Origin: Sphingomonas taxi
GTDB taxonomy: Bacteria > Pseudomonadota > Alphaproteobacteria > Sphingomonadales > Sphingomonadaceae
Length of the DNA stretch: 64,000 nt
Direction: 5' to 3'
Assembly (NCBI RefSeq): GCF_000764535.1
Contig: NZ_CP009571.1
Span: 806,001-870,000 of the forward strand
Position 1 is the stretch's first letter. Every line of letters begins with the position of its first letter. The position numbers and the translations under genes were made by a program. A model generated the notes under the pieces. The model was not told where the DNA came from. It ran no database searches and worked only from the letters and a program-made list of their open reading frames with translations. Below are positions 45,591 through 52,138 of the stretch, in pieces.

Positions 45591-47477
45591 TTAGCCGAAC
45601 AACCGTTTCGCGCTGCGCTCCAGCATCAGCAACTGCCACAGGGTGCGGCCGTGGTCCGCCCGGCCGCTGCGATGCGCATCGGCGAGCCGCGCGACCTGCG
45701 CCATGTCGAGCCAGCCGCTCTCCACCAGCGTCCGCGACCGCGCCAGCCCGTCCGCTTCCGACGCCAGCGCGCCGCGGAACCATGCGCTGATCGGCGTCAC
45801 GAACCCCATTTTCGGCCGATAGAGGATCTCCTTGGGGAGATAGCGTTCGAGGCTGCGCTTCATCAGCCATTTGCCCTCGCCGCCGTGCAGCCGCATGCCG
45901 GCCGGCAGCGTCGCGCAGAATTCGACCAGCCGGTGGTCGAGCAACGGCTCGCGCGCCTCCAGCCCTACCGCCATGCTGGTGCGATCGACCTTGGTGAGGA
46001 TGTCGCCGGGCAGCCAGATCATCATGTCGGCATATTGCGCGCGGTCGAGCGCATCGCGCGCCGGCGCCGCCCGCATCGCCGCGACGTAGCGATCCTCGGC
46101 GCGATGTCCGCCGAGCACCCGCCGCGCCTCCGCGCTGAGCAATTGCGCGCGCAGCTCGGGCGAGGTCACGCCCACGGCGCGCGCATAGGCTTCGTCGCCG
46201 TCCGTCCCGAGCGCAAGCAGCGTCGCCTTGGCGCGCAACGGTCGCGGTGCCCAGTCGGCCTTGGGGTAATAGCGCCCGAGCGTCCCGAACGCCGCGCGCC
46301 GCCACCGATCCGGCAGCATCCCGCGCACCCGTTCCTCCGCCGCCTGGAATCTGTAGCGGCGATAGCCCGCCAGCATCTCGTCCGCGCCGTCGCCCGACAG
46401 CGCCACCGTCACGCTCTTCCGCGCCAGTGCCGCGACCTGATAGGTCGCCAGCGCGCTGCCGTCGGCGAAGGGTTCGTCGAAATGGTGGACCAGCGTGTCG
46501 ATCAGCGCGAAATCGTCGGGCCGGACCACCTGCGCGTGATGATCGGTGGCGAAGCGCTGCGCCACCAATGCGGCATGCGCGCGCTCGTCGTGTCCCGCCT
46601 CGTCGAAGCCGATCGTGCAGGTCTTGACCGCCGCCTTGCTCGCCTCCGCCATCAGCGCGACCACCGCCGAACTGTCGACCCCGCCCGACAGGAAGGCGCC
46701 GAGCGGCACGTCGGCGACCATGCGGCTGCGCACCCCGTCGCGCATCCGCGCCAGCAATTCCTCGCCGAGCGCCTTGGCCGATCCGCCCGCGCGATCGGCG
46801 AAGCTCAGCGACCACCAGCGCCGCGGCCGCGGCACGCCCTGCCAGCGTTGGACGTGGAGGAAATGGCCGGCAGGCAGCTTGCGGACGCCCGCGACGAGGC
46901 AGGCATCGTCGGGCACATAGCCATAAGCGAGGAAATCCTCAACCGCGGTGACGTCCGGCACCCGCCGCAGCAAGGGATGCGCGAGCAGGCCCTTCAGTTC
47001 CGAGGCGAAGGCGAGGCTGCCGTCGGACAATTCGACGTAATGGAGCGGCTTCACCCCCATCCGGTCGCGCGCGAGGAACAGCGTCCCCTGGTCCGCATCG
47101 TGCAGCGCGAAGGCGAACATGCCGTTGAGCCGGTCGAGCAGCGCCGGCCCCCACGCCCGCCAGCCGTGCAGCAGCACCTCGGTATCGCCCTCGGTGACGA
47201 AGCGCGCGCCCTTGCGCTCCAACTCGGTGCGCAGTTCGGCGAAATTGTAGATCTCGCCGTTATAGGTGATCGTCAGCGCGCCTGCCTGCATCGGCTGCGG
47301 CGATCCGTCGAGATCGATGATCGACAGCCGGCGATGGCCGAGCCCGACGCCGGGTGCGGTCCAGATCCCCTCGCCATCCGGCCCGCGATGCGCCTGCGCG
47401 GCGATCATCGCCGCGATCCGCGACGGATCGACCGGCTTTGGCGTCTCGGGATGGAAGATACCGGCGATGCCGCACAT
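45591..47477 (-). CDS. asnB: XrtA-system asparagine synthase (glutamine-hydrolysing)
   Basis: A 628-residue amidotransferase/asparagine synthase. The N-terminal class II glutaminase begins with the nucleophile Cys2 (MCGIAGIFHPE) and has HRGPDGEG and YNGEIYNF; the synthetase half has the PP-loop LSGGVDSSAVVAL and SGDGADEMLAGYRRYR. Its position directly after exosortase A, overlapping it by one base, identifies it as the XrtA/PEP-CTERM amidotransferase that travels with these loci and probably amidates a polysaccharide or precursor rather than free aspartate. Confidence 0.94.
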   Translation of the reverse strand: MCGIAGIFHPETPKPVDPSRIAAMIAAQAHRGPDGEGIWTAPGVGLGHRRLSIIDLDGSPQPMQAGALTITYNGEIYNFAELRTELERKGARFVTEGDTEVLLHGWRAWGPALLDRLNGMFAFALHDADQGTLFLARDRMGVKPLHYVELSDGSLAFASELKGLLAHPLLRRVPDVTAVEDFLAYGYVPDDACLVAGVRKLPAGHFLHVQRWQGVPRPRRWWSLSFADRAGGSAKALGEELLARMRDGVRSRMVADVPLGAFLSGGVDSSAVVALMAEASKAAVKTCTIGFDEAGHDERAHAALVAQRFATDHHAQVVRPDDFALIDTLVHHFDEPFADGSALATYQVAALARKSVTVALSGDGADEMLAGYRRYRFQAAEERVRGMLPDRWRRAAFGTLGRYYPKADWAPRPLRAKATLLALGTDGDEAYARAVGVTSPELRAQLLSAEARRVLGGHRAEDRYVAAMRAAPARDALDRAQYADMMIWLPGDILTKVDRTSMAVGLEAREPLLDHRLVEFCATLPAGMRLHGGEGKWLMKRSLERYLPKEILYRPKMGFVTPISAWFRGALASEADGLARSRTLVESGWLDMAQVARLADAHRSGRADHGRTLWQLLMLERSAKRLFG

Positions 47478-48967
47478 CAGCGCGGCGCCACGACGGCATC
47501 GCTCAAGCCGTCGACCGGGCCGAGCGCCGCCGCCAGCGCAGCGATATCGGCGCGGGCATCGCGCCCTGGCAGCACCTCCGCGGAGAGATGGATTGCCACC
47601 GCGCGCTGCGCGCCGCCGAACAGTTTCGCCTTCATCGTCTCGATCTTCACCACGCGCTCGTCCGACGTTACCGTATCGCCGACGACGTACCATGTCGCGA
47701 CGACGCGCTCCACCGGCCCGGCGGCGGTGATCCGCATCGCCTTGCCGCCGGCGATCGGCGCTTCGTCAGCGACGCGCACCCAGCGGTCCTCTTCGCGGAT
47801 CGCGCCGGTGCCGAAGGCGCCAATTTTATGCCCCTCGCCCTGCGATCCGAAGACCGCGACCGCCAGATCGACCGCCGCGCCGCCACGCGCATAGCGACCG
47901 AACAGCATATGGTCGGCACCCGGATAATACGGCATCCACGGCGCCCGCCGGCTGAGCGCCGCGCGCGTCCACCCTGCCACCTGCGGCAATTCGATCCGCG
48001 CGGGCAGCGGTGTCGCGCGATGCGCGATTCCCGCGCTCCACATCGGCCAGACGCCCGCCACCGCCAGGGTGAGCAGCACGCCGATCGGCAGCCCCATCCG
48101 TCCCCCGGCGACCGGCCGCAGCGCGGCGGGATCGAACGCCGGCGCATCGGGCGTGCGATCGAACCAGCGCCAGCCGATCGCCAGCACCGCCGCCATCACC
48201 AGCCCGAAGAACAGCCAGCCGTAGACGATATGGTCGAAGCCCGTCGCCGCCTCGACGCTGGTCAGATGCGCGGCATAGATCGTTCCGAACGCGCGCAGCC
48301 CGTTGGCGAGCACCGGCACGACCAGCGCGGCGAGCAGGAACCACGCCCGCCGCCGCCACGACACGAAACAGACGTCGGCGACTAGCACGCCGAAGGCGAG
48401 CATCGCGATGACGAACTTGGCGCCCGAACACGCCTCCGCGACCTCGAACCAATAGCGGCCCGCATGGATCAGCACGCCGTTCGAACTCGCCGGCACGCCG
48501 GCCAGATGCAGCAGCGGCATCACCATCCGCACCGTCACGGCTTGCAGCAGCGACTCCATCTCCTCGCCGAACGGCACGAGGAACAGCGCATAGCCGAGCG
48601 GAAAGGCGAGCCCGCGCGCCACCTGCGGCCCGAGCAGCGTCACCACCGCGCCCTGCAGCATGACGACCAGCCCCAATTGCCGCGCGAAGCCGACCGAGCC
48701 GGCGTCGCCCATCAGCCACCCTGCCCCGCCGACCGCGACCAGCGCCAGCCCCGGCCACCACGCCACCGGCGTCAGCGCCGCCAGCTCGCGCCGCCGCTGC
48801 CACACCAGCCAACCGATCACCGGCCCGATGAAGAGGCAATGGCCAAAGGTCGTGCTCGTCCACCAGATCGACACCAACCGCGCGACATCGTCGCGAACCA
48901 GCAGCAGGATCGCCGCCGCCGCCAGCGCCAGCCCGATGGCATGCCGCCGCCATTGTGCGCCGGTCAC
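47477..48967 (-). CDS. xrtA: exosortase A fused to an EpsI domain
   Basis: A 496-residue integral membrane transpeptidase-like protein. Residues 1-270 are the exosortase core with eight or so helices and the Cys-Arg-His triad: Cys180 (EACSGAKF), Arg225 (NGLRAFGT) and His246 (GFDHIVYGW). From about residue 290 an EpsI domain follows (a single helix, then the periplasmic PYYPGADHMLFGRY...GHKIGAFG module). Exosortase cleaves PEP-CTERM proteins; EpsI is often separate, so the fusion is notable but known in sphingomonads. The start is a GTG at 48967 whose last bases are the stop of the glycosyltransferase. Confidence 0.93.
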   Translation of the reverse strand: MTGAQWRRHAIGLALAAAAILLLVRDDVARLVSIWWTSTTFGHCLFIGPVIGWLVWQRRRELAALTPVAWWPGLALVAVGGAGWLMGDAGSVGFARQLGLVVMLQGAVVTLLGPQVARGLAFPLGYALFLVPFGEEMESLLQAVTVRMVMPLLHLAGVPASSNGVLIHAGRYWFEVAEACSGAKFVIAMLAFGVLVADVCFVSWRRRAWFLLAALVVPVLANGLRAFGTIYAAHLTSVEAATGFDHIVYGWLFFGLVMAAVLAIGWRWFDRTPDAPAFDPAALRPVAGGRMGLPIGVLLTLAVAGVWPMWSAGIAHRATPLPARIELPQVAGWTRAALSRRAPWMPYYPGADHMLFGRYARGGAAVDLAVAVFGSQGEGHKIGAFGTGAIREEDRWVRVADEAPIAGGKAMRITAAGPVERVVATWYVVGDTVTSDERVVKIETMKAKLFGGAQRAVAIHLSAEVLPGRDARADIAALAAALGPVDGLSDAVVAPR

Positions 48968-50262
48968 GCCAGCCCCAGCAGAGCATCGAGCGGCGCGAGC
49001 CGCGCCTCCCAGTCGTACCGTGCGATCACCCGCGCCCGTGCCGCGGCACCAAGCGCCGCAGCTGCGTCTGGATCGTCGAGCAGCGCGCCGATCGCCGCGA
49101 CATGCGTCGCGGCGTCGTCGGCGACACGCAGCGTGCCGCCATGATCGATCCCCTCGGCCGCGGCGACGGAGGCGACGACCGGCCGCGCCATCGCCATCGC
49201 CTCGAGCACCTTGTTCTGGATACCGCGCGCGAGCCGCAACGGCGCGACGCACACGTCCGCCGCCGCGAGCCACGGCCGCACGTCGTCCACCGCACCGGTG
49301 ACGATCACGGCGTCGGACGCGAGCGCCTGCACTGCGGCGGTCGGCGCCCGCCCAACGATAGCGAAGCGGACGCCGGAATAGCGCCCCCGCAAGCCCGGCA
49401 GCACGTCGCGGACGAACCAGATGACGGCGTCGACATTGGGCCGGTAATCCATCTGCCCGGTAAAGACGATCAGCGGCCTGTGCGGCACGGACCCGCCCCC
49501 CAATCCCCCCGTCACCCCGGACTCGTTCCGGGGTCCACTCTGCGGCGAGGAGAGCGGCGCATGAGCCGCGACCGTTCTCCCGGGGACGGGTGGACCCCGG
49601 AACAAGTCCGGGGTGACGGCGTGGGTAGGGCCGGCATTCCGTGCCACCACGCCCGGATCGAACGCCGCGGCGTCGATCCCGTTCTCCACCGCCACGATCC
49701 GCCCGGTCGCGCCGCCGGAGCGAAACAACGCCGCCTCCGCCTCGCTGACGAACAGGCTCGCCGAAACCTCCGCGGCAACCCGCCGTTCGAACGCGCCCAG
49801 CACCCGCGCCTCGCGCCGCATCAACCACCGCATCGGTGCCGATCCCGCCTTGGCGAAGCCGGCGAACTTGGCTGAATCGACATCGACGAAGTCCATCACC
49901 GCTGGCACGTCGGCGGGCAGATATTGCGCCATCTGTCCCGAGAAGCAGTAGACCGCATCGGCCCTTACCGCCGCGACCGCACGCCGCATGTCTCCCGACC
50001 CGAAGGCGGTCAACGACACCGGCAAGCCGCGCGCCAGCGCCGCCACCGCCGCCACCGCCTGCGGCTTGCGCCGCCGCACGATCGTCACGCTCGCCAGCCC
50101 GTCGAGCGCGGCCGGCACGTCGAAATCCGCCTCGCCCTCTCCGAACGCGACCAGATGCACCCGCGCCCGCGCCATCAGATAGCGCAACACGTGATAGCTG
50201 CGGATCTTGTCGCCCCGATCGGGCGGGAAGGGCGCGCGATGGGCGAGGAAGAGGAGCTCCAT
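48964..50262 (-). CDS. XrtA-system glycosyltransferase (GT4 type) with repeat-encoded insert
   Basis: A 432-residue GT-B glycosyltransferase, MELLFLAHRAPFPPDRGDKIRS at the start, of the type found in PEP-CTERM/XrtA loci (recalled as TIGR03087). The C-terminal nucleotide-sugar half has QMDYRPNVDAV, FAIVGRAPT, and the PLRLARGIQNKVLEAMAM donor-site motif. Between the domains, residues about 211-258 are encoded by a palindromic element and read HAVTPDLFRGP...GPRNESGVTGG; other members should lack this stretch. The frame stays open through it, so the protein is probably active, with an extra interdomain loop. Confidence 0.92.
   Translation of the reverse strand: MELLFLAHRAPFPPDRGDKIRSYHVLRYLMARARVHLVAFGEGEADFDVPAALDGLASVTIVRRRKPQAVAAVAALARGLPVSLTAFGSGDMRRAVAAVRADAVYCFSGQMAQYLPADVPAVMDFVDVDSAKFAGFAKAGSAPMRWLMRREARVLGAFERRVAAEVSASLFVSEAEAALFRSGGATGRIVAVENGIDAAAFDPGVVARNAGPTHAVTPDLFRGPPVPGRTVAAHAPLSSPQSGPRNESGVTGGLGGGSVPHRPLIVFTGQMDYRPNVDAVIWFVRDVLPGLRGRYSGVRFAIVGRAPTAAVQALASDAVIVTGAVDDVRPWLAAADVCVAPLRLARGIQNKVLEAMAMARPVVASVAAAEGIDHGGTLRVADDAATHVAAIGALLDDPDAAAALGAAARARVIARYDWEARLAPLDALLGLA
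49511..49617. repeat. palindromic element inside the glycosyltransferase coding sequence
   Basis: 28-bp arms GTCACCCCGGACTCGTTCCGG... (49511-49538) and GTGGACCCCGGAACAAGTCC... (49590-49617) are inverted repeats with one mismatch, separated by 51 bases. It is the same kind of repeat as those between genes elsewhere in the window but lies within an open frame, coding about 36-48 residues including flanks. Confidence 0.9.
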
Positions 50263-51287
50263 CACCCCAGCCCGCGCGAAATCCACGGCCCCAGCGCATT
50301 GGCGACCGGCAACGGCAACCGCTGCCACGTCCGTACCATCAGCGCATATTTCGGGTTGAGCGGATTGACCTCGCGGCTCTCCCCCTCGCTGCGCTTGGCA
50401 TAGAGCCGCGGCACGCCGGCGAAGCCCCAATTCTTCTTGAACGCCGCCGCCCCCGTCCCGGTCTTCGATCGCCCGAAGTCGAACCGCGTACAGCCACGCG
50501 CCCGCGCATGGCCCATCAGCGCGAAATACATCCGGTCGTTGGCGCGCAGACCCCGCGCCGCCGCGGTGCCGCCACCCCAATAGGGAAACACCGTCCCTTG
50601 GAAATACAGGCTGAGCACGCTCGCCACCGCCCGCCCCTCGTGCCGCACGGTCAGCACATCGGCGTCCATCGCCTCGGCGACGCAGCGGAACAGTTTCGCC
50701 GGAAACACCGGGGTGCCGAGATTGCGCACCGATTCGGCATAGACGCGATAGTGATCGCCGAGCAGCGCCGCCCCTCCCGTCTCCACCGTCAGATCGAAGC
50801 TGAGCGCCCGCCGCACCTCGGCACGCTGCTTACGCGGCACGGCGAGCAATTCGGCATCGTCGTCCGCCGCCAGATCGCGCACGAAGCCGAGATAGGAGGT
50901 GTCGTCCGTCTCCCATCCCGCCGGCGCCGGTCCGCCACGCAACTCGACGCCCGGACAGCCGATCCGCCGCGCCAGCGCCCAGGCCGCCTCGCCCAGCGCA
51001 TCGACGCCCTCGCCGAGCACCCCGCCATCCACTCCGAAGCCGGTCGACACCAGCGCCTTGCCGAACAGCGGCGACCGCATCGCGGTCAGCGGCAGCGCGC
51101 CGACGATCGCCCCGCCCCGCTCGGCGACGAGATAGCGCGCGCGCTGGCCGCAGCCGCGTTCGACAGCGCGGCTCCAAGCGGTGAGATGGAACGGCGTCGC
51201 GCCTGCGCTACGACGGACGAAGTCGTCCACCGCCGCGCTCTCCCTGCTATCGCGCAGATCGGCCTCGCGCACGCCGGTCGCGGTCAC
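50262..51287 (-). CDS. FemAB-like protein of the XrtA system
   Basis: A 341-residue GNAT-fold protein of the FemAB/BioF2-like group found in PEP-CTERM loci. The start GTG at 51287 overlaps the deacetylase stop (GTGA). Features include PFHLTAWSRAVERGCG, ARYLVAERGGAIVGALPLT, and the second acyltransferase half VASVLSLYFQGTVFPYWGGG...FDFGRSKTGTGAAAFKKNWGF. The role is probably aminoacyl or acyl transfer to a polysaccharide or lipid-linked sugar. It overlaps the glycosyltransferase start by one base. Confidence 0.9.
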   Translation of the reverse strand: MTATGVREADLRDSRESAAVDDFVRRSAGATPFHLTAWSRAVERGCGQRARYLVAERGGAIVGALPLTAMRSPLFGKALVSTGFGVDGGVLGEGVDALGEAAWALARRIGCPGVELRGGPAPAGWETDDTSYLGFVRDLAADDDAELLAVPRKQRAEVRRALSFDLTVETGGAALLGDHYRVYAESVRNLGTPVFPAKLFRCVAEAMDADVLTVRHEGRAVASVLSLYFQGTVFPYWGGGTAAARGLRANDRMYFALMGHARARGCTRFDFGRSKTGTGAAAFKKNWGFAGVPRLYAKRSEGESREVNPLNPKYALMVRTWQRLPLPVANALGPWISRGLG

Positions 51288-52138
51288 GACAGCAGCGCCG
51301 CCTCGCGCGCCACGACCGTATCGACCCGGCCCCAATCGTGCCGTTCGATCAGCCCGCGCAGCTTGCCCGCCATCGCCCCCAGTCGCGAATAATGCCGCAC
51401 CTTCGATCGCAGCGGCGCCTGCCGCACCCGCGGCTGGTCGGCATCGACCTCCCAGGGGTGGAAATAGAAGATGCCGGCATGGCCTTCGCGATTGACCTGC
51501 CGCACCGCGAAATCGGTCAGCGCCGAAGGCAGCAGCCGGAAGAACCCGCCCCCCGTCGCCAGATGCCGCCCGCCGATCCGCGCCACCGTCACCGGCAATT
51601 CGATCAAAGGCGAGTCCTTGAGCGGCCGGAACGCATAGCGTGGCGCATCGCGCCAGCCATAATGGTCGTGCGCCACCGGTGCGACGCTCGACGAATAGGC
51701 ATAGCCCGCCTCCGCCAGCTCATTGAACGCCCACAGATTGCGCGTGTCGATCGAGAAGCTCGGCGCGCGATAGCCCGTCACCGCCTGCCCGCCGGCATCC
51801 TCCAGCGCCGCCCGCGCCCGCGCGAGATCGGCGCGGAACGCCGCCGCATCCATCGTGAACACGCGCTGGTGGTCCCAGCCGTGGCTGGCGATCTCATGCC
51901 CCGCCTCGGCGATCCGCCGGATCAGCCGCGGCTGCCGCGCCGCCACCCAGCCAAGCGTGAAGAAGGTCGCCTTGACCCCGCTCTCCGCGAACAGGTCGAG
52001 CACCGCGCCGGTGTTCGCCTCGACGCGGCTGGCGATCGTCGCCCAGTCGCTCTTGTCGATGACCCGCTCGAACGCGCCGACCTGAAACCATTCCTCGACG
52101 TCGACCGACAGGCCGTTGCGCACCGCGCTACGCGGCAT
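51284..52138 (-). CDS. XrtA-system polysaccharide deacetylase
   Basis: A 284-residue NodB-type deacetylase beginning MPRSAVRNGLSVDVEEWFQ, with catalytic Asp in SVDVEEW, metal histidines in IASHGWDHQRV and the substrate-site RAPSFSI. A C-terminal DUF3473-type part (FYFHPWEVDADQPRV) marks the PEP-CTERM-associated branch. It removes N- or O-acetyl groups from the exopolysaccharide. It overlaps the ATPase gene by 11 bp. Confidence 0.94.
   Translation of the reverse strand: MPRSAVRNGLSVDVEEWFQVGAFERVIDKSDWATIASRVEANTGAVLDLFAESGVKATFFTLGWVAARQPRLIRRIAEAGHEIASHGWDHQRVFTMDAAAFRADLARARAALEDAGGQAVTGYRAPSFSIDTRNLWAFNELAEAGYAYSSSVAPVAHDHYGWRDAPRYAFRPLKDSPLIELPVTVARIGGRHLATGGGFFRLLPSALTDFAVRQVNREGHAGIFYFHPWEVDADQPRVRQAPLRSKVRHYSRLGAMAGKLRGLIERHDWGRVDTVVAREAALLS

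Follow-up and report, generated by a model that had tools for sequence, protein, structure and literature searches.

The linker that joins the two Rossmann domains of an XrtA-system glycosyltransferase in Sphingomonas taxi contains a REP dimer that is read in frame, and the same linker holds REPs of three different families across the genus. The most likely account, which we put at roughly 70%, is that REPs have repeatedly inserted into a permissive interdomain linker of this GT4 enzyme. A non-autonomous, high-copy dimer of the CGTC type would enter the short, variable stretch that joins the domains and, where the insertion preserves the frame, translation of the repeat would add a disordered loop of some 45 to 50 residues that the enzyme tolerates. 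As a permissive site, the linker would have been entered at least three times in Sphingomonas, by REP families A, B, and C, after which the resident elements would drift almost freely at the amino acid level, multiply in tandem, invert, swap, and get deleted while the frame stays open. We infer from the comparisons below that the loop is translated and tolerated, in what order elements were gained and lost, and that the site stands out for its permissiveness, not for any benefit or target preference.

The window, the whole 64,000-nucleotide stretch of S. taxi DNA that was analysed, carries the insert-bearing gene on its minus strand at 48964..50262. The 432-aa product matches the TIGR03087 profile of PEP-CTERM/XrtA-system glycosyltransferases at 392.5 bits, above the curated cut-off of 316.65, and its reading frame is uninterrupted across the REP dimer. 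The surrounding minus-strand ORFs (45591-52138) look asparagine-synthase-like, exosortase-like, FemAB-like, and polysaccharide-deacetylase-like, and presumably make up the usual XrtA/exopolysaccharide cluster. As read in the protein, the insert occupies the interdomain linker at residues 211-258 (49489..49632, minus strand) in both alignments and the AlphaFold2 model, exactly the coordinates given in the earlier note. AlphaFold2, run with 37 sequences, returned a mean pLDDT of 88.6 and a pTM of 0.84, with 351 of the 432 residues at a pLDDT of at least 90 and the two Rossmann domains mostly above 90. Residues 214-257 fell below 50, i.e., they are predicted to be disordered, and the insert is predicted to form a loose loop between the two confidently modelled domains. 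When the predicted fold was searched with Foldseek, GT4-type enzymes such as 6tvp were matched (E = 1.8e-15), and a profile search agreed with this (E = 1.3e-11).

The REP dimer itself is an inverted dimer of the family that we call type C and spans 109 bp (49510..49618, no strand assigned). Arm 1 (49510..49537, plus strand) consists of a CGTC head, an 8-bp stem, a 5-nt loop, and a CCA tail, and arm 2 (49591..49618, minus strand) is the same unit on the opposite strand. The 28-bp arms differ by one mismatch, just as had been claimed from the letters alone, and are separated by a 53-bp spacer; at lower stringency the inverted repeat grows to 41 bp at 85% (49498-49538 and 49590-49630). RNA folding of the region gave -112.8 kcal/mol (z = -7.56 against 200 dinucleotide shuffles). 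The host linker is 207 bp long, whereas five relatives lacking the insert have linkers of 57, 57, 60, 60, and 72 bp, which amounts to a gain of 135-150 bp. It is very unlikely that the insert arose from a sequencing error, because independent records, from Sphingomonas melonis and others, share the kind of insert and its place.

We searched the 4.06-Mb genome with the 20-bp core of the repeat and up to three mismatches. There were 119 forward and 122 reverse matches (241), whereas the reversed core pattern, used as a control in the same genome with the same mismatch limit, matched 0 times in either direction, so the core is a genuine high-copy repeat. The earlier note's claim that a REP-like, normally intergenic repeat is read in frame between two Rossmann domains is upheld. 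Our type C catalogue of 108 elements was drawn from 99 genomic stretches, chosen from the best 100 of the 241 core matches, 40 scored long matches, and one tblastn match; because the stretches were picked by similarity, diverged copies are absent from it. Inverted dimers account for 92 of the 108, and the modal dimer is 107 bp, a length not divisible by three.

The consensus unit, built from 61 copies, consists of CGTC, an 8-bp stem (ACCCCGGA/TCCGGGGT), a CTTGT loop of 5 nt, and a CCA tail, which lies within the ranges of the CGTC superfamily (stem of 8-9 bp, loop of 4-5 nt, CCA). The terminal CGTC is conserved at 99% per base over the 176 ends of 88 dimers, the copies having been retrieved through a core that adjoins CGTC and does not include it. 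The predominance of inverted dimers agrees with the mainly inverted (HH) dimers of the superfamily, whichever end the paper calls the head. Stem position 1 is A-T and position 2 is C-G; according to the accessible parts of Di Nocera et al. 2013 (PMC3733652), CGTC REPs "almost invariably" have A-T at both positions. The type C unit therefore fits the CGTC superfamily of that paper except at the second stem position.

Two features of the type C copies bear on how they move. A RAYT transposase was rejected as the mover, since a search for Y1_Tnp (PF01797) in this genome and two relatives was negative in all three while 5 of 14 control genomes were positive, and we do not assign the repeat to the REPIN/RAYT class. 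The Y1_Tnp-free genomes agree with the description, in the parts of PMC3733652 available, of CGTC repeats without a transposase partner. No target-site duplication or direct repeat was visible at the ends of the 88 dimers. In the type C copies of this genome (G000), a weak TTTCC box lies 11-15 nt outside CGTC and looks like part of the repeat itself, not a target; because of this box, the mobile unit appears to exceed the REP dimer in length, which would bring it close to the gene's net gain of 135-150 bp. G000 also contains a repeat family related to type A, with 28 matches, the longer of which mostly show 74-78% identity.

The 108 type C elements were sorted by a codon-usage score of their flanks, for which a gene broken by insertion is indistinguishable from two neighbouring genes. 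Coding flanks were co-directional at 40 elements, convergent at 29, and divergent at 9; a further 26 sit beside one coding flank, 3 were unresolved, and 1 runs in frame through a gene. That single copy is the one in the glycosyltransferase. Families A and B were scored in the same manner in two relatives (G034 and G024, 20 copies per family each, taken as the best matches to the glycosyltransferase copies with those copies excluded), and 0 of 80 were in frame through a gene. As a positive control, the score flagged 19 of 20 insert-bearing glycosyltransferases, the missed one having a stop codon. By this measure, REP copies avoid genes outside the glycosyltransferase linker. The translated insert peptide did match open frames elsewhere by tblastn, the longest of 578 aa, but at none of the nine matches checked was the peptide frame the coding frame on both sides; at two of the nine, the flanks were coding in one frame with stops between them. 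These nine places (3 in the 108-element catalogue, 1 on contig C2 of this genome, and 5 in four other genomes) are a subset of the peptide matches and were judged with a codon table trained on this genome. The earlier note had proposed to look for the same peptide in unrelated genes, and none of the nine matches is such a case. Its broader statement that REPs can enter essential-looking genes is too general, since just 1 of 188 scored copies, the glycosyltransferase one, is in frame through a gene. This rarity elsewhere (1/108 and 0/80) also counts against our preferred account, because many proteins have linkers and mere permissiveness might predict more in-frame copies.

Linkers of other Sphingomonas orthologs were then compared. 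At E ≤ 1e-50, 295 Sphingomonas genomes yielded 261 orthologs, and at least 25 of them have a REP dimer in the linker, assigned by eye to type C in 3 (G000, G538, G541), type A in 8 (G518, G098, G034, G085, G184, G210, G177, G151), and type B in 14 (G116, G117, G148, G222, G562, G024, G565, G082, G192, G572, G094, G186, G095, G521). We read individually those orthologs that had a match split at the linker, plus one truncated by a contig end; 25 is a lower bound because short remnants leave the match unsplit. G186 is counted although its insert contains an in-frame stop, which is probably an assembly error in a genome that is 80% complete; the type B insert of G521 runs into a contig edge, and G067, with two matches, is excluded because it has a full-length unbroken match. 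Type C was found in S. melonis, and the clade with types A and B includes Sphingomonas faeni strains and isolates Leaf208, Leaf230, and OK281.

Among 30 aligned rows, our own included, the two closest homologs are insert-free and two others have different palindromes in the same linker. The gap that the earlier note proposed to look for in other sphingomonads is present in several close relatives. Linker lengths in 123 distinct parsed orthologs were 18-26 residues in 103, 31 in one, and 50-74 in 19; this set was partly chosen for inserts and so displays two size classes, not frequencies, and 5 of 128 orthologs, L084 of G186 among them, were unparsed. All 20 insert-bearing linkers in a 27-row DNA set are divisible by three. 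Families A and B are themselves repeated within genomes that carry them. A and C have a common REP plan (CACCCCGG...CCGGGG...CCA) yet are distinct families in different reading frames, and the differing frames mean that the two did not diverge from a single insertion with its frame retained. We can practically exclude that the insert is a long-standing accessory domain of these enzymes, palindromic by chance: within each clade it is common to several species, but several close relatives lack it, its DNA is found at about 100 further sites, most of them intergenic, the position in the linker is filled by three different sequences, and the segment is predicted to be disordered, so this idea is already contradicted.

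In a tree of 123 proteins built without the linker, our own type C row joins five insert-free rows, and types A and B are intermixed in another clade. A DNA tree of 27 rows, built from domains and flanks, places L010 (type A) with three type B rows (support 100/100) and L083 (type A) inside type B rows (95/90). The A and B labels need at least six changes on the best tree, in which several branches are weak; the later-found G518, G538, G541, G562, G565, G572, and G521 lie outside both trees. Gene replacement as the source of this mosaic is unsupported for L083 and L010, whose DNA matches that of their type B sisters up to both linker edges; because the flanks match these sisters, the swaps brought no long flanks from the type A rows compared. 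L080 and L087 share about 157 identical bp around the element despite a domain pS of 0.25, possibly through exchange, recent replacement, or constraint at the DNA level. Because such short exchange of inserts is possible, true new insertions are bounded only from below, by the three families.

Rearrangements within the linker are also visible. The type B spacer of L011 is inverted relative to all 11 other type B inserts compared, clearly so against most of them and narrowly against L086, L091, and L113, while the outer flank that it has in common with L082 is unchanged; the seven type A spacers run in a single direction by eye. Tandem growth was seen in type A: 15 of 121 proteins have linkers of 129-250 aa, and linkers with 2-4 units occur in L358 of G518 and in P0041-P0044, P0046-P0049, P0052, P0059, P0065, P0066, P0074, P0076, and P0112. 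Homolog length goes up to 624 aa, with four A units. At the DNA level, a two-unit case had a host coding segment copied along, and some tandem repeats include the host segment AVE[ND]GID..FDPA. Loss is probable as well: the 31-residue linker of L045 appears to retain both ends of a type A element that was otherwise deleted, i.e., a deletion scar, and both L045 and the short-linker L044 are nested in the insert-bearing clade.

The mosaic of labels, the swaps limited to the linker in L083 and L010, the spacer inverted in place in L011, the near-identical tract of about 157 bp in two species, and the tandem duplication would all be expected if sequence or local recombination drew palindromes to this DNA, where they would insert, swap, and flip whatever their effect. 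We regard such a DNA-level hotspot as unlikely, if a serious contender, since the positions of A, B, and C in the linker differ somewhat and their flanks are different, and the type C dimers have neither direct repeats at their ends nor a box that looks like anything but the repeat's own.

Selection on the host and on the insert was compared by pN/pS, measured for inserts of type B alone. Over four independent type B pairs the ratio was 0.14 in the domains and 0.94 in the insert, one of these pairs having zero insert differences, and over the 15 pairs of six equal-length type B inserts it was 0.16 and 0.87. The domains are under purifying selection and the type B insert peptide is nearly free to change. 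The domain values of 0.14-0.16 in these relatives lend indirect support to the view that the protein is made and works with its insert. Insert pS is low, however, at 0.14 vs 0.38 in the domains (15 pairs) and 0.08 vs 0.24 (four independent pairs), which speaks against a purely neutral view.

The earlier note took the multiple-of-three length and the open frame as signs of selection on the element, and this has to be given up. Among the six frames, 52% were open in type C (88 copies), 56% in type A (40), and 66% in type B (40), against shuffle means of 67%, 53%, and 57%, respectively. Because intergenic type C copies are open less often than their shuffles, the open frame is no evidence for selection on the element; the modal dimer length and the pN/pS of about 0.9 in type B inserts point the same way. 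What keeps the frame open in the gene is purifying selection on the host.

Hairpin strength gave a divided picture. Folds expressed per 100 nt had unequal amounts of flank, so in-gene and intergenic values can be compared only roughly. The type C hairpin in the gene has -71.3 kcal/mol per 100 nt against an intergenic type C mean of -57.0; for type B (intergenic mean -63.1), 7 of 11 in-gene hairpins are stronger and 2 of 11 are weaker by more than 1 sd. By contrast, 5 of 7 type A hairpins in the gene are weaker by more than 1 sd (-43.3 to -53.7 vs -58.0, sd 4.1). The strong type C and type B hairpins, the very stable fold of the region, the low insert pS, the presence of three families at one site, and the insert in most rows of one clade could mean that lineages retain the REP because its RNA delays the ribosome between the domains or controls how strongly the downstream XrtA genes are expressed. 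We find this improbable, if still a contender, given that the insert was not found in 236 of the 261 orthologs, that a probable scar (L045) and a short linker (L044) occur within the insert-bearing clade, that the weaker hairpins of types A and B run counter to it, and that the type B peptide is nearly unconstrained. A bolder version, rather unlikely in our view, would make the linker a recurrent docking site in which REP hairpins of different families are taken up, passed between species, inverted, and multiplied because an in-frame hairpin alters production of the enzyme or its operon, turning an intergenic repeat into a swappable protein cassette.

In-frame REPs are already known, both as Rickettsia RPEs and among other CGTC and GTAG REPs. 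The accessible parts of PMC3733652 describe intragenic CGTC and GTAG REPs in several species, and the elements studied here resemble them in their CGTC head, 8-bp stem, 5-nt loop, CCA, inverted dimers, alphaproteobacterial hosts, and occurrence of some copies within ORFs. The same parts equate RPE-4 and RPE-6 of Rickettsia conorii with CGTC repeats, which lends substance to the resemblance to Rickettsia palindromic elements proposed in the earlier note. As with RPEs, the palindrome lies in frame within a gene that has insert-free orthologs, but RPEs, as that source presents them in part, occupy many genes of one genome, whereas here 1 of 108 copies is intragenic and its linker was hit repeatedly. 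The accessible text also mentions recB, where two Xanthomonas species have different REPs at about one site. In Sphingomonas, a single interdomain linker holds REPs of three families in at least 25 genomes, along with cases of tandem expansion, inversion, and what is probably a scar. The glycosyltransferase was absent from the intragenic REPs in those parts of the paper, its Additional file 3 list aside.

Two other systems are similar in part. Enterobacterial RU elements (Delihas 2007, PMC2759123) are likewise small mobile repeats with open frames within annotated genes, but they have other sequences and other hosts, and recurrent capture at the same site is absent from the accessible portion of their description. 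REPINs with RAYT transposases, as far as the available text of PMC3116915 and PMC8266576 goes, are also high-copy inverted REP dimers, from which ours differ by the lack of a PF01797 match in the three genomes searched. A search of the literature on such repeats and on the enzyme names, subscription literature lying mostly outside it, found no REP in an XrtA glycosyltransferase. What is new is that, across a genus, three families have repeatedly used one linker, where elements have also grown in tandem, inverted, and probably been lost. One linker of about 20 codons with three kinds of repeat amounts to a natural replicate experiment, in which insert-free, inserted, probably scarred, inverted, and tandem-expanded alleles occur across environmental species. 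The site lets one test whether intragenic repeats are merely tolerated or put to use, and it also informs the pace at which new protein segments arise from mobile palindromes. As a warning to annotators, VTPDLFRGP, PLPEREGPGVG, and HPGEGRGPVG in predicted sphingomonad proteins are peptides from repeat DNA.

Outside Sphingomonas, no insert was seen among the matches listed for 195 genomes of other genera, a check that covered all but the weakest single matches (e.g., G399, G246, G264, and G377). Of the genomes with multiple matches, G390 and G446 have a full-length unbroken match, and G499 is fragmented with a normal linker of 20 residues. Two records under other names, L100 (Arthrobacter sp. 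TPD3018) and L157 (Microvirga sp. SRT01), contain sphingomonad-like orthologs and are probably mislabelled or contaminated.
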